Shown one piece after another: positions 41,992 to 58,483 of a DNA stretch of 64,000 nucleotides (the stretch's first letter is position 1; every line of letters begins with the position of its first letter). Below the pieces are notes generated by a model, which worked only from the letters and a program-made list of their open reading frames with translations, was not told the DNA's origin and ran no database searches. This DNA comes from Secundilactobacillus odoratitofui DSM 19909 = JCM 15043 (GTDB lineage: Bacteria; Bacillota; Bacilli; Lactobacillales; Lactobacillaceae), in contig NZ_AZEE01000030.1 of NCBI RefSeq assembly GCF_001434895.1, forward strand, positions 224,526 through 288,525, in the 5' to 3' direction. The translations under genes and the position numbers were made by a program.

Positions 41992-42428
41992 GGGGGACGC
42001 CTCCTTGTATAAAGTTAAAATAATCTACAAAAAACTTGGTTGCAATTGTTAAACTGGCAGTGCAAGTTGTCATCACACTTTGATGAATGAGTAATTTAAG
42101 TCGTAAAAGCAAGCTTATATCCCCAATTAACTCACTCAACAACTAATTCTAACCCGTATTATAGCCGATAAATAATGACTTTTGTATAAAAATGGACATT
42201 CTTCTAAAAAAGATATCGATGCTAAGGTTATTTAAGTCATGTTCAGTAGTGCTAAAGGGTAAAGTACATAGTTAAACTATTCAAGATTATGACAGAAAAA
42301 TCAATTGTGTTTATCCAATTTTTTAATGAAAAGTTTTAACTGAACTTACAAAGGTCAATATTGACTTGGTTTATGGGACTGGTAAGGTTGAAGTGTATCG
42401 AAAATAAATCATATTGGGGTGTTTTGGA
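41992..42428. other. AT-rich intergenic region without genes
   Basis: This is a 437-bp gap between the divergent small gene and a secreted-protein gene. A minus-strand TATAAT at about 42156-42161 can serve the small gene. The plus-strand promoter of the secreted protein is not clear. No repeat or RNA was recognised. Confidence 0.4.
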
Positions 42429-42944
42429 ATGGATTATAAACAGGAAATCGTTGCTGCGGTGGCTGCATTTTCATTTGGAACATTGGCACTTATCGCAACT
42501 CAACCAACGGCATCTGCTTCAACTGTGTTGAGCAGTATTCCAAAGTCGCTGCGGGGTAACTGGTATTTGACTGAGTCACGCGGTTCAACGACACATATTT
42601 TATTTGGGAAGAAGACCATGAAACTACGAGATACCTTGGATGGTAAAAAGCTATCGCCTCGTACTTATAAAATCGCAAAAAAATGGTCTACCGATACTCA
42701 TCACTTCGTCTTCAGTAAGAACCATCACGGCTGGTACAACTACTCACTAACCGGTGTTAATGGGATCGATGTGTTAAAACTCAAAACTGTTAAAATTAGC
42801 GGTCATACCTATCATGCACTGATCACTGAAGATATGGGCGGTAGTGGTTATACACCAAAGAAACTCAACCTAACGTTGGCCTTCAGAAATCCTACCAAGA
42901 CGCCACACAAGATTAAGATTTCAACATCTGGTATGTTGAATTAA
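42429..42944 (+). CDS. Secreted hypothetical protein
   Basis: This is a 171-residue protein with a signal peptide. A hydrophobic stretch VAAVAAFSFGTLALIATQP is followed by an ASA-S cleavage-like site near residue 30. The mature part is small and basic, beginning SIPKSLRGNWYLTES, a motif often seen in short exported lactobacillar proteins of unknown role. The ATG at 42429 has only a weak ribosome binding site; a TTG at 42414 is an alternative. No anchor is seen, so release or loose wall binding is likely. Confidence 0.6.
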   Translation: MDYKQEIVAAVAAFSFGTLALIATQPTASASTVLSSIPKSLRGNWYLTESRGSTTHILFGKKTMKLRDTLDGKKLSPRTYKIAKKWSTDTHHFVFSKNHHGWYNYSLTGVNGIDVLKLKTVKISGHTYHALITEDMGGSGYTPKKLNLTLAFRNPTKTPHKIKISTSGMLN

Positions 42945-43042
42945 GTTAGAGCGATTGGGTTGATCATGGGGCGGTTTGTTGCATTTGATTCAAGTCATGG
43001 TCCAAGTTGTTGTGGAAATATATATAAAAGGCAAGTTATTTA

Positions 43043-43129
43043 ATGACTTACATTTCATCTATTCTTCTGATTGTTTTGGTGGGGACGGTTTTTTCATATT
43101 TGGATAAGTTTGATATCATCAACGTATAA
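43043..43129 (+). CDS. Possible hydrophobic micropeptide (28 aa)
   Basis: This is a 28-codon ORF in the gap between two secreted-protein genes. It encodes one hydrophobic segment, MTYISSILLIVLVGTVFSYL, followed by the polar tail DKFDIINV. AAAAGG lies about 11 nt upstream. Its size and shape resemble membrane-active small peptides or type I toxins, but chance cannot be excluded. Confidence 0.22.
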   Translation: MTYISSILLIVLVGTVFSYLDKFDIINV

Positions 43130-43227
43130 TATTCAAATATAAATTATTTATTTATTATGATACAATAGTCTTTGTGCCATTTAGCAAAATTCTAGGTTGT
43201 CATAATATTTGTTTGGAGGAGTTTATT

Positions 43228-44037
43228 ATGTTTAAGCGTTTGATCCTTGTTGCCATTAGTCTTAGTATTTTAGGGGTGGCTGCTATCAGTGCACAATCGA
43301 GTACTGTGATGGCTAAAACTAAGGCTGCAAAAGTTTTAAAAACTACAAATATCAAAAATGTAAAGGTACATGTCACTTCGGGCCTGTTATATACTAATAA
43401 AAAGCTCACTAAAGTTGCTTATCACGCCGGTAATTATGATAAACGGACCTTCACCCGCACCTCTCAGATTACCGTTAAGAAAGCTAATGGGAAAAAGGCA
43501 GTATATCAATACATCAAATCTGGCAAGGTTAAAGGTTGGATCTGGCGAGGCGATGTGTTGATAGGTGCATATCAAGGGCGAAAGTTGTATTGGAAGGAAT
43601 CCATTTTTAAGTCAACTTTGATTTCGATTGTTAACAAAGCCCGTTCAAAGCATCATTTAAAGCCACTCACTTATTCAACCAAAATTGAAAAAATTGCCAA
43701 GTATCGAGCTGATCAGCAAGACAATCCTAATTGGGCAATCGATCACATGGATAAGAATTTAACAAAGGCTTTTAAAAAGTTAAATATGACTGATGAAAAT
43801 TGGGAAAACTATAATGAGTTATATATTCAAGGGGCGGAAATTGCCAATAGTGATCAAGGTGTTAAACAAGAAGCCCAAATGTTTTATGACGATGAAAAGG
43901 ATGAATTTTTAGATTCAACAATTAGCGCATGGGGAATCGGTTCTCTAGGAATTGTGAATTATCCACGAACGTCGGCTTCTGAGACTGTTGAGCTTTATTC
44001 AACTCCTAGTGCTAGAGCTGCAGCAGCTGCAGAATAA
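43228..44037 (+). CDS. Secreted CAP-domain-like protein
   Basis: ATG at 43228 behind TTGGAGGAG gives 269 residues. A signal peptide (FKRLILVAISLSILGVAAIS) ends near residue 29. A basic region of about 100 residues has alternating Lys and aromatic residues (YTNKKLTKVAYHAGNYDKR, GWIWRGDVLIG), like SH3/GW-type wall-binding segments. The last part, from SIVNKARSKHHLKPLTYSTK through YNELYIQGAEIANS to SAWGIGSLGIVNY, follows the pattern of CAP/SCP domains. It ends in an Ala-rich tail. The role is unknown; wall-associated exported protein is inferred. Confidence 0.65.
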   Translation: MFKRLILVAISLSILGVAAISAQSSTVMAKTKAAKVLKTTNIKNVKVHVTSGLLYTNKKLTKVAYHAGNYDKRTFTRTSQITVKKANGKKAVYQYIKSGKVKGWIWRGDVLIGAYQGRKLYWKESIFKSTLISIVNKARSKHHLKPLTYSTKIEKIAKYRADQQDNPNWAIDHMDKNLTKAFKKLNMTDENWENYNELYIQGAEIANSDQGVKQEAQMFYDDEKDEFLDSTISAWGIGSLGIVNYPRTSASETVELYSTPSARAAAAAE

Positions 44038-44064
44038 TTTGAAATTTTTAATTGATTTTTATTG

Positions 44065-44105
44065 AACACAATCACTGCTATTTCTGTAATAGTGATTGTG
44101 TTTTT
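44065..44105. terminator. Terminator after the CAP-like gene
   Basis: AACACAATCACT pairs perfectly with AGTGATTGTGTT, followed by TTT. The remaining gap to 44338 is AT-rich with an ACACA/TGTGT inverted repeat and no gene. Confidence 0.85.
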
Positions 44106-44338
44106 GTTTGAAGTCAGTTGAAATTGCATGTATTATTTGAATTTTTTAGTTTGGTGCTATTTAAGTTACTTTGCGCAAAAATATGAAGTGTAGGGCTTCT
44201 ATCGGACAGTGGTTAATACCATAACACACTATTAATCATTGTGTAAGCTAACTAATCTTGGTATGCTTTTAAGTGGTTTTATGCATTAAGGTGCATATTG
44301 CTGAATTTAATCTATTTTTCGAGAGGGGTTCATTTTTC

Positions 44339-45490
44339 ATGAACAATCGTTACGCTATTTTAGTCGCAACTTCCATTTTTGCGATCTCCAGTACCTCTGC
44401 ACAAGTCAATGCTGCTACAAAATCAAAGCAGCAGCTTAATCTCAAGGTCGCTATGGTGCACGCGGGGGACCAGAAGTTATCTGGTACGGCAACCAAAGGG
44501 GCCAAGATTAAAGTCACACGCTATGCTAAGACGTTTGGCGCTGGCAAAGTTAACGCCAAGACGGGTAAGTTTACGTTTAAGCTGAAACAGCCGGTTAAAG
44601 CTAACTGGCATTATCGAGTGACTGTTACCAAGAAGGGGTACAAGACGAAAGTTGTACACTTTGGGGTAGCAAAAAAAGCGGGACAGTCAACAGGGCAATC
44701 GAAACACAATGCGGATATTGCTAAGTTACAGGTTCAAATTGAGGACCTAAAGGATCGGGTTAATCAAATTAGTGAGCAACAGCCACAAATATTGATTAGC
44801 TATACAAATGATGGTGAAATTACTAATTTAAAGCAACAAATTGTGGATTTAAATAATCAGATTAAAGATTTAAAAAATGAACTTAGTGATTCTGAATCTG
44901 AAAATACAGATAAAATGGGTAGTTTACGTGATCAGATAAACGAGCTTCAATCACAAATTGCTAATATTAAATTTAATTTAAACGAAAATAGTTCTTCAAG
45001 TGTTGATCCAAATAGTGATTGTGGATCAGATACTAGTACAGCAGCTCAACCAAGTATTGATCAAGATTACGAGGCAAGAAAAGCCGAAGCGGCTCGAATT
45101 GAACAGGAATTAAGCTCGCTTGATGATAAAATAGAAAAATTACAAGATGAGAAAAGCCAGAAAGATTGGGCGTTAAATCAAGTCAGCTGGCGTTCTTCTG
45201 AAACTGCTCAATCAATCTTGAATTACACAAGTAATGAACTTAACACGCTCAAGGAAAAGGTAGTTGCAGATCCACAAAATCAAAGTTTACAATTAAAAAT
45301 TAAGAGGCTTCAAGAGCAAGTGGATGAGGAGACACAGGATTTAGCAAACAGTATTCGGGCAGAAAAAATCGTCAACGGTCACGAGATGGATTTTAGCAAT
45401 CGAATTGATGAAATCTCAATAGAGTTAGATAAATTATATGCTCAACAGCAAGAGTTAAGAAAACAACAAGATTTGATTTGGAATTACTGA
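44339..45490 (+). CDS. Secreted protein with Ig-like domain and long coiled coil
   Basis: ATG at 44339 behind GAGAGGGG gives 383 residues. The signal peptide is NNRYAILVATSIFAISS with cleavage near VNAAT. One bacterial Ig-like domain spans about residues 30-110 (KLSGTATKGAKIKV... GKFTFKL). From about 120 to 210 and again from 250 to the end it is a heptad-rich coiled coil (LKQQIVDLNNQIKDLKNEL), broken by a Ser/Asn-rich linker. There is no catalytic domain and no LPxTG anchor. It could be a wall-bound scaffold or adhesin; the function is unknown. Confidence 0.65.
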   Translation: MNNRYAILVATSIFAISSTSAQVNAATKSKQQLNLKVAMVHAGDQKLSGTATKGAKIKVTRYAKTFGAGKVNAKTGKFTFKLKQPVKANWHYRVTVTKKGYKTKVVHFGVAKKAGQSTGQSKHNADIAKLQVQIEDLKDRVNQISEQQPQILISYTNDGEITNLKQQIVDLNNQIKDLKNELSDSESENTDKMGSLRDQINELQSQIANIKFNLNENSSSSVDPNSDCGSDTSTAAQPSIDQDYEARKAEAARIEQELSSLDDKIEKLQDEKSQKDWALNQVSWRSSETAQSILNYTSNELNTLKEKVVADPQNQSLQLKIKRLQEQVDEETQDLANSIRAEKIVNGHEMDFSNRIDEISIELDKLYAQQQELRKQQDLIWNY

Positions 45491-45508
45491 TTATTTTCAT
45501 TTTATGTA

Positions 45509-45535
45509 AGCCACCTCATTGAGGGTGGCTTTTTT
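45509..45535 (+). terminator. Terminator of the coiled-coil gene
   Basis: AGCCACC-TCATTG-AGGGTGGCT followed by TTTTT. The 45536-45790 stretch beyond holds no recognised gene or RNA. Confidence 0.85.
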
Positions 45536-45790
45536 CATCTTGGTAGCCTCCTAAGTTTAGTGGGGATTATCACAGAATTAGTTACTGATTTAACTTTATC
45601 AAGTAAGTAATTTTGAACACCCGTAATCTGATAATTTTCACATGTTTTGCAAGGCCTGTTTAAAGCTTCGTAGTGTAGGGTGCTCTCCAGAATGGTTTTG
45701 AGGTTGATTTAATTTTGTGGCAAGTCATGCGTCAATCAATCTTAATACTTAGGCTCAACCCTAATTTTCACCTTTTTTCACCAGTAAATC

Positions 45791-45819
45791 TTCGCAAGTG
45801 AGTCACTAAACGGTATAAT
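45791..45819 (+). promoter_or_regulatory. marR-type promoter with palindromic operator
   Basis: TTCGCA at 45791-45796 and TATAAT at 45814-45819 are separated by 17 bp. The spacer contains the palindrome AGTGA-G-TCACT at 45797-45807, a good candidate autoregulatory site for the adjacent MarR protein. Confidence 0.6.
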
Positions 45820-45853
45820 TGGCTTATGCATGATTCAAGAGGAGGGAACTCGT

Positions 45854-46297
45854 TTGACCTTACACACATTCCCCGGTGACCTCGCGCAGTGCTTTTCCAT
45901 CATTCACCGCGCGTTTCAACGGGATACACAACCGCTCTACAAAGCCATTGATTTAAACGTCACGAACGCTTACATATTACTGCTGCTCGACCAGCAGGGG
46001 GAGCGCAGCCAGAACGAATTGGCGCGCACTCTGGTCATCAACAAGGGCCAAATTACGCGTGAAATTAAGCGCCTGTCTGAACTCGGGTACGTGTCGCAAA
46101 CGCAGTCGTTAGACAATCGGACGACTAATGTGATTCGGATCACGGATGCTGGTTTGAAAGTCGTACCTAAAATCGTCGACATTCGGAACGCTTGGTGGCA
46201 GGAACGGCTCAATCGCAACCACGTAGATGTGAACGCGCCGTTTGCCGAAACACTTGAGAAAATTATGGATGAGCTGATTGTGCGCAACAAGGCTTAG
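45854..46297 (+). CDS. MarR family transcriptional regulator
   Basis: This is a 147-residue winged-helix regulator. The recognition region reads SQNELARTLVINKGQITREIKRL and the wing VSQTQSLDNRTTNVIRIT. The start chosen is TTG at 45854, placed by GAGGAGGG at 45839-45846; the ATG at 45830 precedes that site and lies near the transcription start. It may control the DHA2 exporter encoded downstream on the other strand, but they are not adjacent. It ends at its own terminator. Confidence 0.85.
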   Translation: MTLHTFPGDLAQCFSIIHRAFQRDTQPLYKAIDLNVTNAYILLLLDQQGERSQNELARTLVINKGQITREIKRLSELGYVSQTQSLDNRTTNVIRITDAGLKVVPKIVDIRNAWWQERLNRNHVDVNAPFAETLEKIMDELIVRNKA

Positions 46298-52857: not shown

Positions 52858-53793
52858 ATGAAACAACGATTTGTTACCCGTACCGCATTGATGATGGTGA
52901 GTGGTGCCTTGCTGAGCGCTACGATGCCTATTTTGCCTAGTCACTTTGACACAACGATGACCGCTCAAGCTGCAACGGTGATCCCATACAGTACCTTCAC
53001 CGCTGATTTCACTGCTTTACAAACGGCAGTGAACATGGCTGGTCACAAGGTTCAGTCTGAAATTGGTGCCAGTTTCTACGCCGATTTGAAGGCTGAACCA
53101 GAAGATGCCTATTCAAACTACCTCGGCTCATTTTCGGACGCCATCGAGACCTTCAGAAACGATGTTTACGATGACTACGATTACGACGAGGATGGCGACA
53201 TGTATTTAACCACCGACTTTGCACCTGACTGGGCAGCACTAAGTTCACTGTACCAGCAGTTTAAAGACCGTTTCTCCAAGGCTGAGCAGACCCAACTGGC
53301 TAGTATGTATGCCGCAGTGGTGAACGAAGATGATCCAGATACCATAACCGATAACGCCTATGATTTTGCCCAGGAATTGTCCGACGCTGTTGTCGCGTGG
53401 GGAGCGGATGTCACGCTCGCACAACCTCAGTCGACCGATTCGCAGGTCACCACGACCAAAACGACGACTAAAACGGGTTCGTCCACGACAAACACCAATA
53501 CCAAAACCGTCACGACCACGGCCAAGAAGGGGACGATCACCCAACTTAAGGCCCATCGCACGGCATCGAAGAAATCAGTTAAAGTCACTGGCACAGTTAA
53601 AGCAAGCAAATCAGCCAACTATGCACGAATCAAGACTTATAAAGGCTATCGTTACGCTAAATTAAATCGTAAACATCAATTTAGTAAGACAATCTACGCG
53701 CCAAAAGCTAAAGTTGTGAAGGTAGTGGCTGGTCATTACGCACACGGTCATTTCACTGCGAAGACTAGTACAAAAACTGTTCACGTTAAATAA
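52858..53793 (+). CDS. Secreted protein with Thr-rich linker and Ig-like C-terminus
   Basis: This is a 311-residue exported protein. The signal peptide spans TALMMVSGALLSATMPI, with cleavage after AQA-A near residue 40. An acidic helical domain (residues 45-175) is followed by a Thr-rich linker (about 190-225) and a basic C-terminal beta-rich domain with KSVKVTGTVKASKSANYARI, related to the Ig-like domain of the protein at 44339. No anchor motif. The family is unknown. The ATG follows a weak AAAAGGA site. Confidence 0.6.
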   Translation: MKQRFVTRTALMMVSGALLSATMPILPSHFDTTMTAQAATVIPYSTFTADFTALQTAVNMAGHKVQSEIGASFYADLKAEPEDAYSNYLGSFSDAIETFRNDVYDDYDYDEDGDMYLTTDFAPDWAALSSLYQQFKDRFSKAEQTQLASMYAAVVNEDDPDTITDNAYDFAQELSDAVVAWGADVTLAQPQSTDSQVTTTKTTTKTGSSTTNTNTKTVTTTAKKGTITQLKAHRTASKKSVKVTGTVKASKSANYARIKTYKGYRYAKLNRKHQFSKTIYAPKAKVVKVVAGHYAHGHFTAKTSTKTVHVK

Positions 53794-53802
53794 TGCCATC
53801 AA

Positions 53803-53850
53803 AAAATCGGCTGTCCGCTCAATGATTCATTGCGGACAGCCGATTTTAGT
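53803..53850. terminator. Bidirectional terminator
   Basis: The perfect 16-bp pair at 53803-53818 and 53832-53847 has AAAATCGG and CCGATTTT ends. It serves the secreted-protein gene and the convergent chimeric gene. Confidence 0.88.
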
Positions 53851-53884: not shown

Positions 53885-55147
53885 TTAGTTGCGACGCTTG
53901 CGGTCAACTGATGCACCTAGTAAGCCCATCAGGGTCAAAAGCAGCGTACCAATCAGTGAAATAGCAGTTGAATTTGCTTCACTGGTTTGTGGTAATTGGT
54001 TTTTGGTAGCCGTTGCCTTTTGGATTGAAACGGTCTGTTCAGCGGCTGGTTGGTTGATCGTCGTTGCTGTTGGCTTAACGGATGAGCTTTCGTTTTGATT
54101 GTTAAGGGTCGTTAAACCGGACTGATTATTAGTTGTTGCAGCTGTTTTTTCAGCAACTTCAGGCTGATTTTGTGGTTGAGCTTCTGGTGTGACTGGTTGC
54201 GTTGGCTCAGTTGGTACCACCGGATTAGTTGGCTCACTAGGGTCCGGTGGTGTTACCGGTTCAGTCGGATTAGCAGGTTCGCTTGGGTCCGTGGGGTTTA
54301 CCGGCTCAGTTGGATTAGTTGGCGTGGTCGTACCGCCATTGTTATCCGGGTTGCCGTTATCCGAATCAGGATCAACCGGTGTCACAGCGACCTTCGTATA
54401 AACGACTTGGTCAGTAGTTGTAATCGTCCCATCAGGATTGACTGTGGCAGTAAACGTCGACTTATCAGCTGTATAACCAGTGAGCGTAGGAACGTTCAAC
54501 GTCAACGTTTGACCAGTTTTGCCAGTGACGTCCTTAATCGTTTGCGGCTGAGATGCGCCGTCAACAGTGGCTGGTAAGGTAACGTCAGCTGTCGCGGTAT
54601 TAGCGGTGTAGGTGACACTCTCGTCAGTGGCCGCGTTATCGAGCGCCAATTTAGCTAGTAAGGGATTTTGGCCAATGCCCACCGTCGTGATAATACCGGT
54701 CTGCTCAAAAACGCGATCTTGAATGGCTCTCGCAATCTCAACGTTACTACCAAATAACTTATGGGATCCGCTCACGTCGAGAAAACTCTCATCAATCGAA
54801 TAGGGGAACCAGTGGGTATCATCGGTGAACTGCCGGTAGATTTTATTGATTTGATAGTTCAGTTGAATGTAGTCTTGCATATGTGGATCGACTAGCTTTA
54901 AGTCCATGTCTTCCCTGAGTTCATAGCGCCGAGTGCCTAACTTAACACCGTAATTTTGCTTGGCATAGGGGCTTGCTGCTAAAATCAAGCCGCCACTGGA
55001 TTCTTCTCTGGACAATACTGCAATTTTGGCTGAAGTTGGAAACTCTGCGCGTTTGATGGCTTCCGTTGAGGCGTAAAAGGACTTGCAGTCAATGCAGAGA
55101 ATATCGTGAACGGGCAATCGGTATGGATCTGAAAGTGGAGTGGTCAT
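53885..55147 (-). CDS. Chimeric gene: truncated Y-family DNA polymerase fused in frame to LPxTG surface protein C-terminus
   Basis: Two unrelated parts form one 420-residue frame. Residues 1 to about 171 are the start of a UmuC/UvrX-type translesion polymerase: ILCIDCKSFYAS with the metal-binding Asp20, YSIDESFLDVSG with the catalytic SIDE (Asp119, Glu120), and TVGIGQNPLLAKLALDN. There the match stops, without thumb and little-finger domains. The rest is a MucBP-like beta domain (SVTYTANTATADVTL... GQTLTLNVP), a Pro-rich NPTEP/DPSEP repeat wall spacer, and the sorting signal LPQTS at about 385-389 with a hydrophobic helix and RKRRN tail. There is no signal peptide, so the anchor probably cannot be used. 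ATG at 55147 overlaps the yolD-like stop. It is most simply the scar of a deletion that joined two genes. Confidence 0.85.
   Translation of the reverse strand: MTTPLSDPYRLPVHDILCIDCKSFYASTEAIKRAEFPTSAKIAVLSREESSGGLILAASPYAKQNYGVKLGTRRYELREDMDLKLVDPHMQDYIQLNYQINKIYRQFTDDTHWFPYSIDESFLDVSGSHKLFGSNVEIARAIQDRVFEQTGIITTVGIGQNPLLAKLALDNAATDESVTYTANTATADVTLPATVDGASQPQTIKDVTGKTGQTLTLNVPTLTGYTADKSTFTATVNPDGTITTTDQVVYTKVAVTPVDPDSDNGNPDNNGGTTTPTNPTEPVNPTDPSEPANPTEPVTPPDPSEPTNPVVPTEPTQPVTPEAQPQNQPEVAEKTAATTNNQSGLTTLNNQNESSSVKPTATTINQPAAEQTVSIQKATATKNQLPQTSEANSTAISLIGTLLLTLMGLLGASVDRKRRN
54150..54370 (-). repeat. Pro-rich short-period coding repeats in the wall-spacing region
   Basis: Repeated units of the form xPxEP/DPSEP (NPTEPVNPTDPSEPANPTEP) are encoded by a directly repeated DNA pattern with about 12-18 bp periods. 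Such spacers vary in copy number and are targets for recombination. Confidence 0.6.
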
Positions 55148-55512
55148 GATGACCACCATTTTTTAGCCGGGATGACGGTTGCGTGGCGAATATCGGCTAC
55201 GTTGACGGTGACAAGCTCGGTATCGGTTTGAAGGAACACGACGCTGTTTTGATGGCCAATCACCACACCCGTTAATTCAGTTAAACCCTTAGCCGTCATC
55301 AATTGAAGGGTTGCTTTTTTGGTTCGCTCCCAACTCGTCTGAAGTTGCTGGTCAATGTCTGATGCCGACATTGGTGGTAAGGGGGTTACGGGGCGCTCAC
55401 GTGAACCTTCCTGTTCCATATAGTTCGTGTGGTCACTCATAAAAAAGCCGAGCCACTTCATCATGCCACGGTCGGGGTACAACCACAGTTCTCTTGGTAC
55501 TTCTCGAATCAT
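55144..55512 (-). CDS. YolD-like protein of the Y-family polymerase operon
   Basis: ATG at 55512 behind GAGGTG gives 122 residues. The protein has KWLGFFMSDHTNYM near the start and SASDIDQQLQTSWERT in the middle; the C-terminal part has LTELTGVVIGHQNSVVFLQT. YolD-like genes sit directly before UvrX/UmuC-type polymerases in Firmicutes and their phages, as here, with a 4-bp overlap into the polymerase. An in-frame start at 55551 would overlap the previous gene. Confidence 0.75.
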   Translation of the reverse strand: MIREVPRELWLYPDRGMMKWLGFFMSDHTNYMEQEGSRERPVTPLPPMSASDIDQQLQTSWERTKKATLQLMTAKGLTELTGVVIGHQNSVVFLQTDTELVTVNVADIRHATVIPAKKWWSS

Positions 55513-55537
55513 CACAATCACCTCGTTAACGTCATCG

Positions 55538-55855
55538 CTAACTATGTCCATGGTAGATATCGTGGGTAATGTCCTTGGTGGGGTGTACCAGCTGATGAGT
55601 GTCCCGTTCGATCAGCCGCAGTTGCGTAAAGGTGCGAAGGTCGCGCAATACTTCGCGGTACAGCGCTGGATCGCGTTTAATGGCTAATAATTCCCTGGAG
55701 TGGACGAGCTTGGAACCGGTTCGCTGCTTCTCAATGAAGAAGTAATAGCGGTCAAAAAAATGGTTATTCACAGCTAACAGCCAGTAGCGATACTTGTATT
55801 CACGGAGAAAGTAGCGCTCGTAGCGGGCCTTTAGGTCTCTGGACTCCTTACGCAT
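55538..55855 (-). CDS. Hypothetical protein, first gene of the SOS operon
   Basis: ATG at 55855 gives 105 residues; the GTG at 55864 is part of the GAGGTG ribosome binding site. The product is charged and rich in aromatic residues (RYERYFLREYKYRYWLLAVN, DRYYFFIEKQRTGSK), probably alpha-helical, with no recognised domain. It lies directly behind the LexA box and before the yolD-like and polymerase genes, so a role in the DNA damage response is likely by context only. Confidence 0.65.
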   Translation of the reverse strand: MRKESRDLKARYERYFLREYKYRYWLLAVNNHFFDRYYFFIEKQRTGSKLVHSRELLAIKRDPALYREVLRDLRTFTQLRLIERDTHQLVHPTKDITHDIYHGHS

Positions 55856-55879
55856 GTTGATCACCTCATGATTATTTTA

Positions 55880-55893
55880 CGAACATACGTTCG
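55880..55893. promoter_or_regulatory. LexA (SOS) box
   Basis: CGAACATACGTTCG is a perfect palindrome matching the Gram-positive LexA/DinR consensus CGAACRNRYGTTYG. It lies 25 bp before the start of the first gene of the minus-strand operon, so the operon, including the chimera, should be induced by DNA damage. Confidence 0.9.
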
Positions 55894-55956
55894 AGTTGTC
55901 AACTGCATTTTCATTTCACAATTGTAAATCCTTACCGAGGACCTTTCAGACAACGT

Positions 55957-55996: not shown

Positions 55997-58483
55997 TTAA
56001 ATAAACAAACTGGTGTTACGTTGGCGGGCATCACCAAGGTACGATGCAACACCGCCAAATTCGACGCCATCAATTAATTCGGCCTGCTCAACGCCCATCA
56101 AGTCCATGCTCATGGTACAAGCGACCATTTTAACGCCAGCATCCTGTGCTTTTTGTAACATGGTTTCGAGTTGATCCACGTTATTTTTCCGCATGAGTTT
56201 TTTCATCATGCTGCGACCAGCACCCAACATGTTGAGGTTGGAAAGTGGGAGCTTTTGAGCACCGTGAGGAAGGGCCATATCAAACATTTTGGCCATCCCA
56301 CGTTTGTGAAGTTTAACGCCGGGGCGCTTAATGACGTTGAGTCCCCAGAAGGTGAAGAACATGGTGACTGGCTGGCCCATTGCAGCGGCACCCTGAGCGA
56401 TGATGAGGCTGGCAATCGCCTTATCAAAGTCACCGTCGAAGACAACGATCGTTGTGCCTTCATTATTGGTATTTGTGGTGGGCTCGTGACTTGAAGTCGT
56501 GGCAGCCTCGGTCGCCAAAGTGTCACAGGCCTCAGTTGTGACACCTTTTTGGACCGTCGCTACGACCTTGTCACCCTGAATCTCGTTGTTGATAATCGTA
56601 TTGTGGGTAGCCTTGGCCCAGGCGTCGATATCCTTGTAGAAGCCAAAGTCAGAAGCGGTCACTTTAACTTGCTGACCGTCAGCCAGGTCGTCCATGGTTT
56701 GACGCACTTTCAAAATCGGGCCGGGACACTGGAGACCACAGGCATCCAGTTCGATTTGTTTTGTGGTGGATTGAGCCGTGGTGGCAGCCGTCGCTGTTGT
56801 TGGCGCTGCGGGTTTCGCCGCTGGTGTCTCGGGATGGGTTAACTGGTATTTGGCGACCCGATAAGTTTTGAGGCCGCCGTCCAGATTGTAGACATCAAAA
56901 CCGTTTTGTGCCAGTACACGGGCCACGTTATAACCACGGAGGCCCACTGCACAGTAAACGTAAATTGGTTGATTTTTTGGTAGTTCGCTCAAACGGTCAC
57001 GAATTTCACTTCGCGGAATCGAGACAGCGGTTTCAATTTTAGGTTCCGCTAATAATTCATCAGGGTTCCGGACGTCCAGAAAATAAGCTTTATTGGCAAT
57101 CAATTGATCAACTTGGTGCCATTGGACACGCTTGACTAAATTGTCCGCAACGTCCATGGCGATAAAACCAGCAAAGTTAACGGGGTCCTTAGCTGAAGCG
57201 TATGGCGGTGCGTAGGCCACTTCGATATCAGCTAGTTCGCTGACTTTAGCGTGAAAATGCATGGCAGTCGCGATGACGTCAATTCGTTTGGTGACACCTT
57301 TAGTCCCGACAGCTTGAGCGCCGAGAATTTCACCGGTTGGCGCAAAAAGGACCTTTAATTCGATTGGTGCGGCGCCGGGATAGTAGGCGGCACTTGAATT
57401 AGGGTGGAGGTGAATGACGTCATACGCCATATTAGCGGCAGTCAGTTGCTTTTCATTAGCACCAGTCGCAGCAGCAGTTAAGGCGAAGACCTTGGCAACT
57501 GAAGTACCCAGTACAGCTGGGTTGGTGTGATCAATGCCACAGAGTTGGTCAGCGAGGTAGCGGCCCTGTCGGTTGGCTGGACCGGCCAGTGGAATCGAAA
57601 CGGTCTGTTTGGTGACGGCGTTCACAACGGTGCTGACATCACCGATGGCATAAACGTTAGGTAGGTTGGTTTCAAATTGCGCATTGGTTGTGATGAAGCC
57701 TTTTTCATTCGTCTTGATGCCAGCGTCAATTGCCAGTTTAGACGTTGGCTTGACACCGATGGCTAGAATGACCATGTCCGTTTGCAGCGTCTCGCCGTTA
57801 CCCAGTTCAAGAACGTGGCCGTGTGCTGTAAAGCCATTGAGCTTGGTGTTTAGGCGCACATCGACACCATTTAAATTAAGGTGCTCATGCAGATACTGCG
57901 CCATTTCAAAATCTAGGTTTGGCATGACCTGATCAGAAGCTTCGACTAAAGTCACGGCTAAACCGCGGTCGTGGAGGTTTTCGACCATTTCAAGGCCAAT
58001 AAAGCCACCGCCAACAACGGTTGCGTGCGTTGGCTTGGTGGTCTCAATGAACTGGGTAATGGCATCCACATCGGGTACCGTCCTGACAGTAAAGACGTTT
58101 TGTGCTTCTGCCAAGCCAGGGAAGTTAGGCACGATTGGACTGGCACCAGTGGATAAGATCAAGTGGTCGTAGTGATCTTGAATCTGACCATCTGGCGTCT
58201 GAACGGTGACTTGCTGGGCGTCAGCATCAATGGCTGTAACCTTACTGTTAAGGTGTACTGGAATGTTGAAGTCCTGTTGCATATCTTCGGGTGTGGAGAC
58301 GAAGAGGCTGTCACGTTCTTTGATTTGTTGACCAACATAGTAGGGTAAGCCACAGTTAGCAAAGGAGATATAGGGACCTGCTTCATACATCACGATCTGC
58401 GCATCTTCATTTAACCGGCGTAATCGGGTCGCAACACTCGCACCACCTGCAACACCGCCGACAATTATGAACTTGTTTGACAT
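55997..58483 (-). CDS. CoA-disulfide reductase / rhodanese / TusA / DsrE fusion (persulfide handling)
   Basis: This 828-residue four-domain protein reduces and relays sulfane sulfur. Residues 1-445 are a CoA-disulfide reductase flavoprotein: FAD motif VGGVAGGAS, active-site Cys44 in SFANCGLPYYVG, second nucleotide site VVGGGFIGLE, AIGD near 280. Residues about 455-545 are a rhodanese with Cys511 in YVYCAVGLRGYN. A linker rich in Ala, Thr and Pro leads to TusA (575-645) with CGLQCPGP, Cys586. After a second linker comes a DsrE-like domain (677-828) with Cys789. All catalytic Cys are present. AGGAGGAA lies before the ATG. It is divergent from trx and a CstR-like gene, sharing an operator pair; it is probably derepressed by persulfides. 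Confidence 0.9.
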   Translation of the reverse strand: MSNKFIIVGGVAGGASVATRLRRLNEDAQIVMYEAGPYISFANCGLPYYVGQQIKERDSLFVSTPEDMQQDFNIPVHLNSKVTAIDADAQQVTVQTPDGQIQDHYDHLILSTGASPIVPNFPGLAEAQNVFTVRTVPDVDAITQFIETTKPTHATVVGGGFIGLEMVENLHDRGLAVTLVEASDQVMPNLDFEMAQYLHEHLNLNGVDVRLNTKLNGFTAHGHVLELGNGETLQTDMVILAIGVKPTSKLAIDAGIKTNEKGFITTNAQFETNLPNVYAIGDVSTVVNAVTKQTVSIPLAGPANRQGRYLADQLCGIDHTNPAVLGTSVAKVFALTAAATGANEKQLTAANMAYDVIHLHPNSSAAYYPGAAPIELKVLFAPTGEILGAQAVGTKGVTKRIDVIATAMHFHAKVSELADIEVAYAPPYASAKDPVNFAGFIAMDVADNLVKRVQWHQVDQLIANKAYFLDVRNPDELLAEPKIETAVSIPRSEIRDRLSELPKNQPIYVYCAVGLRGYNVARVLAQNGFDVYNLDGGLKTYRVAKYQLTHPETPAAKPAAPTTATAATTAQSTTKQIELDACGLQCPGPILKVRQTMDDLADGQQVKVTASDFGFYKDIDAWAKATHNTIINNEIQGDKVVATVQKGVTTEACDTLATEAATTSSHEPTTNTNNEGTTIVVFDGDFDKAIASLIIAQGAAAMGQPVTMFFTFWGLNVIKRPGVKLHKRGMAKMFDMALPHGAQKLPLSNLNMLGAGRSMMKKLMRKNNVDQLETMLQKAQDAGVKMVACTMSMDLMGVEQAELIDGVEFGGVASYLGDARQRNTSLFI

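Follow-up and report, generated by a model that had tools for sequence, protein, structure and literature searches.

As far as the available text of PMC6511836 and PMC12926913 describes them, the UvrX/YqjW-type polymerases with a YolD-type partner are encoded in loci where small genes and umuC stand behind a LexA-type box, and the Gram-positive umuC-like genes with YolD partners are SOS-controlled, some by prediction and some by demonstration (PMC6511836). These enzymes have a thumb, a little finger and a C-tail with a clamp motif and a RecA-NT motif; the C-tail provides the contacts to clamp and RecA and is the expected site of YolD binding, according to the accessible portion of PMC6511836, and modelled complexes show the N-terminal arm of YqjX/YolD inserted into the polymerase (partial text of PMC12926913). 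The locus analysed here has the same layout of small genes and umuC behind a LexA-type box, and its palm and fingers have all the residues that are invariant in the compared rows, but adhesin sequence stands in place of the thumb, little finger and C-tail. The second system to be compared is that of the KxYKxGKxW/LPxTG adhesins with MucBP-like repeats, represented by a 1013-aa protein of Secundilactobacillus similis. The last repeat, the stalk, the LPQT motif, the hydrophobic helix and the basic end are common to it and the fusion, whereas the fusion has no signal peptide, no N-terminal region and a single repeat. The third comes from Mycobacterium tuberculosis, where fusion genes arising from multigene deletions were described from whole-genome sequencing data, one of them by mass spectrometry (available text of PMC7671302). 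In those cases, as is proposed here, two genes became one continuous frame when the intervening DNA was lost; unlike them, the present fusion is read from one assembly and its partners are functionally unrelated.

The window (the whole stretch of 64,000 nucleotides that was analysed) has a single open frame on the minus strand at 53885-55159, uninterrupted throughout, that encodes 424 aa counted from its first ATG; residue numbers are counted from 55159 throughout. Translation probably begins at the ATG at 55147, giving 53885-55147, where this start and the stop codon of the preceding gene overlap as ATGA. The first 177 residues are palm and fingers of a Y-family polymerase of the Gram-positive UmuC/UvrX type with the catalytic acids kept, and residues 178-424 are an adhesin's last repeat, Pro-rich stalk and LPQTS sorting signal. 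Judged by its homologies, the fused frame is more than an accidental reading of noise, since longer homologues exist for both halves. The features of the locus are as follows.

55874-55902, minus strand: promoter-like site TTGACA-17-TAAAAT with a LexA-type box, CGAACGTATGTTCG (55880-55893), between the hexamers; promoter and box scans.
55538-55864, minus strand: first operon gene, intact 108-aa ORF, function unassigned; counterparts at 60-63% identity in L161, L162 and L163, none reported in L160.
55144-55551, minus strand: putative YolD-type accessory subunit, intact 135-aa ORF whose end overlaps the start of the fusion (ATGA); in L160, L161, L162 and L163 a counterpart with 49-54% identity lies immediately before umuC.
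54629-55147, minus strand: 5' part of a UvrX/UmuC-type polymerase gene, palm and fingers, residues 5-177; Pfam IMS, congener identity, pLDDT and Foldseek.
54626-54631, minus strand: junction, last umuC-like codon Ala177, first adhesin-like codon Thr178; DNA and protein comparison with L014, L015, L016, L026 and the S. similis adhesin.
53885-54628, minus strand: 3' part of an adhesin gene, with the last MucBP-like repeat (about residues 187-256), Pro-rich stalk, LPQTS, hydrophobic helix, RKRRN and stop; S. similis adhesin identity, Gram_pos_anchor, LPXTG_anchor and model.
53803-53847, no strand assigned: inverted repeat, probable bidirectional terminator, between the convergent fusion gene and 311-aa gene; 89% match to its own other strand over 45 bases.

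The polymerase half matches Pfam IMS (PF00817) at residues 23-173, over 147 of 148 profile positions (E 1.7e-30), and D24, D123 and E124, the catalytic acids of Y-family polymerases, are the same in all 36 rows of an alignment. Pfam, at E up to 1, found neither a thumb (HhH) nor a little finger (IMS_C) in the fusion; in the intact relative L014, IMS_HHH_1 lies at 207-254 and IMS_C at 269-381. These results bear out what a sequence-only reading of this DNA had claimed for the frame, namely that it is uninterrupted, that it begins as a UmuC/UvrX-type polymerase with all metal-binding residues, and that thumb and little finger are missing. Past residue 181 the fusion has no umuC homology, so that by homology the region of the beta-clamp motif and the RecA-NT tail, as placed from the available text of PMC6511836, is missing. 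Among PDB sequence matches, 41 of the 42 distinct sequences are named DNA polymerase IV or Dbh, most of them with an alignment that spans roughly residues 20-177 and in some cases reaches 196, and the remaining one, Ruminococcus Amy4, aligns with the fusion tail. A leave-one-out test was run on 39 Lactobacillaceae rows, the window among them (L052, whose frame ends at 35 aa, was left out). None of the 60 columns invariant in the other rows is changed in the polymerase part of the window; 30 other rows likewise have no change, and 8 have 1 or 2. Compared with three congeners, the polymerase part gives pN 0.084-0.087 and pS 0.82-0.90, and since synonymous sites are saturated, no age of the fusion follows from dN/dS. 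The unchanged invariant columns would be compatible with a recent fusion or with continued selection alike.

The tail reads out as the end of a wall-anchored protein, as had been proposed from the letters: both Gram_pos_anchor (Pfam, residues 384-422, 22.4 bits with a cut-off of 20) and LPXTG_anchor (NCBIfam, residues 388-423) score above cut-off, and the sorting signal at the C-terminus is complete, with LPQTS motif, hydrophobic helix and basic end. The MucBP-like domain of the same proposal fares less evenly. It is upheld by the homology of the repeat to the S. similis adhesin (L159:2232-5270, minus strand), a 1013-aa frame with KxYKxGKxW_sig above cut-off and a MucBP match at 814-861, whose residues 785-895 are 61% identical to the fusion tail, but not by Pfam itself, since MucBP in the tail scores 13.2 bits against a cut-off of 23 and is thus sub-threshold. 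The lack of a signal peptide was noted correctly: the fusion's N-terminus is polymerase, with no hydrophobic stretch by Kyte-Doolittle, where the best 19-mer starting before residue 40 scores 0.62, against 2.07 at residue 400. That the tail might be a divergent polymerase C-terminus is ruled out, as an intact relative has thumb and little-finger domains at this place, the fusion has none, and the tail matches adhesins. The segment after residue 171, for which an alignment to polymerase C-terminal domains had been named as the contrary outcome, aligns to adhesins from residue 178 on.

Both parents can be recognised in congeners. The same three-gene operon, ending in an intact 434-aa UmuC, is found in S. 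mixtipabuli, S. yichangensis and S. angelensis (umuC loci L014, L015 and L016), and against the intact umuC of three congeners the fusion is 84-85% identical to residue 181 and unaligned beyond; the intact congener UmuC consists of IMS, thumb and IMS_C, the fusion of IMS only. The polymerase frame of S. similis, at 372 aa, is shorter than those of the other congeners. At the DNA level umuC similarity stops at window position 54630 and adhesin similarity starts 20 bases further; at the protein level the switch falls between Ala177 and Thr178. Homology changes over at 54626-54631, in agreement with the switch at about 54620-54637 seen in the letters, and of the polymerase end that had been placed at residue 171 the switch itself stands while the exact position does not, as homology runs to residue 177 (DNA about 54630). 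No long repeat common to both sides was found at the joint, in a comparison of congener umuC and the S. similis adhesin, the true parents not being among the sequences compared. As to where the two kinds of gene lie in congeners, S. similis has adhesin and umuC on one 98-kb contig, about 42 kb apart and on opposite strands, and in S. mixtipabuli the intact umuC (L162:7607-8908, plus strand) is preceded on its own strand, at a distance of about 4.2 kb, by an LPxTG adhesin frame (L162:1-3384, plus strand).

The host assembly comprises 2.75 Mb in 31 contigs and is 99.98% complete. The missing umuC half did not turn up anywhere else in it: apart from the fusion itself, the search matched only a paralogue of full length (44%) and a more distant frame of 377 codons (23%). 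The adhesin's N-terminal part likewise has no recognisable orphan in its own genome, where there are only local matches at about 27% and repeat matches on contigs C17 and C21; for this reason the adhesin parent at the fusion site had to be deduced from another species. A different explanation for the junction is an error of the draft assembly that put two remote stretches next to each other in one contig. The draft state in 31 contigs and the single genome for the species speak for such an artefact, as does a similar adhesin frame of the same genome that sits at a contig end, on C21; adhesin repeats are hard to assemble. However, the missing umuC half is on no contig, the nearest adhesin repeats of the genome are only 45-49% identical to the fusion tail, which makes read confusion unlikely, and the frame is open throughout with a tail that ends where adhesins end. 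We therefore rate a wrong assembly as improbable. The paralogous umuC operon of the host (L170:5045-7068, minus strand) is intact, and together with the distant 377-codon Y-family frame it would cover translesion synthesis. Its order is umuC first, then genes of 125 and 136 aa, and the product of the 136-aa gene has an N-terminal motif resembling that of the 55144-55551 product.

We hold with good confidence that the frame is a single-lineage fusion produced by illegitimate rearrangement, most simply a deletion, which is open by chance; the product is in all likelihood inert or degraded, and the gene most probably a one-off relic of rearrangement without selected function. In this course of events, an SOS umuC operon of mobile type and an LPxTG adhesin gene on the same strand would have been brought together by an illegitimate deletion. 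The polymerase would have lost its thumb, little finger and C-tail, the adhesin its signal peptide and most of its repeats, and the frame would have stayed open after joining by chance, about 1 in 3. Compared with what a deletion-born fusion would leave, both parents are longer and separate in congeners, the lost DNA is absent from the assembly, and adjacent parents are found in no relative. It had been suggested that related genomes be searched for a complete umuC followed by a complete LPxTG gene, and this order was found at none of 33 relatives' loci whose sequence extends 2.5 kb or more past base 900 of the match. Thus, of the earlier idea that a deletion joined two same-strand genes, the rearrangement is well supported (longer parents in congeners, a sharp switch, the lost half absent, one genome), and deletion as the particular event is inferred.

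The same absence of the gene order that a deletion requires (0 of 33 loci) is a point in favour of insertion or transposition, in which an adhesin gene would have received a truncated umuC cassette. Moreover, this umuC type looks mobile: Lacticaseibacillus plasmids carry it, two congeners have it on small contigs (12.7 and 13.6 kb), and 5 of the 15 genus genomes, the fusion's own included, contain it with an identity of at least 80%. Yet the joint is preceded by a complete operon including its promoter, neither a transposase ORF nor a shared repeat shows up at the joint in the ORF list and the junction comparison, and the gene beyond the operon is CoA-disulfide-reductase-like and not the 5' part of an adhesin; an insertion is, in our estimate, quite unlikely. 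That neighbouring gene (55997-58483, minus strand) encodes an 828-aa protein that by eye we take to be a CoA-disulfide-reductase-like enzyme followed by rhodanese-, TusA- and DsrE-like parts. Full-length frames at 77-78% are present in 4 of 14 other genus genomes, and a split one in S. similis (G013); there is no umuC operon within the stretches taken around the counterpart in four congeners.

The upstream part of the operon appears to be intact. The promoter-like site at 55902-55874 has 11 of 12 consensus matches, and since the scan gave 5 such sites where shuffles gave 3.5 (sd 1.9), it convinces by its score and place, not by the number of sites. Similarly, CGAACN4GTTCG occurs once in the 64 kb and at least once in 14 of 100 window shuffles, and the LexA-type box is convincing because of its place in the promoter spacer and because 26 of 39 related Lactobacillaceae loci have GAACN4GTTC in the 1.5 kb before umuC (it was not found in the other 13). 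The intact SOS promoter of the sequence-only reading is thus retained as a prediction. Its intact yolD-like gene is retained as an open frame with counterparts in four relatives, but not by Pfam, which gives the 55144-55551 product no YolD match; the label is putative and goes by position and an N-terminal motif. At the other end of the fusion gene, the inverted repeat at 53803-53847 is absent from the output of the terminator scan, which allows loops of up to 8. DNA damage would act through the LexA-controlled promoter to give a message whose third cistron encodes palm and fingers followed by adhesin repeat, stalk and sorting signal, and SOS-driven expression of the fusion is what we infer from this arrangement. 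The product would have no normal polymerase action and no normal route to sortase, and it is expected to be inert or degraded because it lacks the little finger, the C-tail and a signal peptide.

An AlphaFold model of the fusion has a mean pLDDT of 68.7 and a pTM of 0.46, on the 36-row alignment in which the tail is covered practically by the window row alone. Blocks of 10 residues have pLDDT 76-96 over residues 21-170 and 85-94 over 191-260; values fall below 50 at the joint (residues 178-186), are low in the stalk and reach 55-59 in the C-terminal helix. The model has beta strands at 188-256 and a low-confidence C-terminal helix at 397-422, and its Foldseek matches are solved Y-family polymerases (Dpo4/DinB/Dbh), mostly over about 160 columns. 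In the model both halves look like complete modules, and the break falls at the palm/thumb boundary and just ahead of the adhesin repeat. A joint at a domain boundary on both sides, as in a useful fusion, counts against the relic reading; so does the undecayed polymerase part, which fits a recent event and would also fit selection. One can imagine a functional new protein, an SOS-induced palm-fingers module, possibly tethered to the membrane by the C-terminal helix, that damps translesion synthesis by withholding the YolD-type subunit or the template. The SOS-type promoter and the ATGA overlap are kept, as are the catalytic residues and all 60 columns invariant in other rows, both modules are predicted to fold, and the palm-fingers piece might partly keep the contact with the YqjX/YolD arm. 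On the other side, the fusion occurs in 1 of 397 genomes only, it has no signal peptide, it is without the little finger and without the C-tail in which the consulted part of PMC6511836 places the clamp and RecA contacts and the expected YolD binding, and a recent relic would look alike; a functional protein is, we think, very unlikely. In its most explicit form, an SOS-induced, tail-anchored regulator at the membrane would compete with the intact UmuC paralogue for the small accessory subunit or for primer ends and lower mutagenesis after damage, and to this we give hardly any credence. The new role once suggested for the product, as a dominant inhibitor of translesion synthesis, is unsupported, with no second occurrence, the C-tail lost and no secretion signal, and the rearrangement alternative is the better of the two.

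No second fusion is present among the matches listed for 15 genus genomes, the fusion's own included. For 397 family genomes, drawn from a larger group, a listing at E <= 1e-60, with up to 4 candidates scored in each genome, gave 59 matches from 53 genomes, and none except that of the window reaches past query residue 216; the fusion is found in 1 of the 397, its own, in a listing at a threshold that would miss fusions with a more distant polymerase. An LPxT[GS] motif within the polymerase frame was found at none of 80 loci (the best 80 of 94 relatives, one contig scan). Coverage of at least 80% of the query at one place, a test that would miss a fusion to a different stalk, was reached in none of 2501 matching plasmid records and none of 102 matching phage records, and the exact 30-base junction pattern had 0 matches in viral contigs. 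Among open-licence papers, nothing was found that joins umuC, LPXTG and gene fusion, nor Secundilactobacillus with umuC. A recurrent architecture is rejected as far as the search extended, with no second case in genus, family, 80 loci, plasmids or phages, and the sequence-only impression of an architecture without known precedent holds across the 397 family genomes, the 80 loci, the plasmids and the phages. At 6 of the 80 loci the polymerase frame is shorter than 330 aa without running off the record (3 ran off). One of these six, a broken umuC of Lacticaseibacillus sharpeae (L038:1312-2616), stops near the palm-thumb boundary (186-aa ORF), like the polymerase part of the fusion, but its remaining half follows as a separate 211-aa ORF and nothing is fused to it. 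A 529-aa ORF nearby is, by eye, presumably a transposase.

As a relic, the fusion would be a clean natural example of how one rearrangement puts a surface-protein tail under SOS control while two foldable domains are kept, and such rearrangements are raw material for possible new proteins. There is also a caution for annotation, as either half taken alone would yield "polymerase" or "surface protein", both misleading. If functional, the product would be an unexpected membrane-linked brake on mutagenesis.

The surroundings of the fusion hold further secreted-looking proteins. At 42001-46000 the G+C content is 0.36-0.38, against 0.44-0.49 on the flanks, and several small secreted-looking proteins are encoded there. 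The convergent neighbour (52858-53793, plus strand) encodes a secreted-looking protein of 311 aa with no Pfam match and with matches in 9 of 15 genus genomes, its own included. Several of these matches keep only a C-terminal module of about 90 aa well (61-74% identity), the N-terminal part being far less alike, a pattern that suggests module swapping between paralogues.
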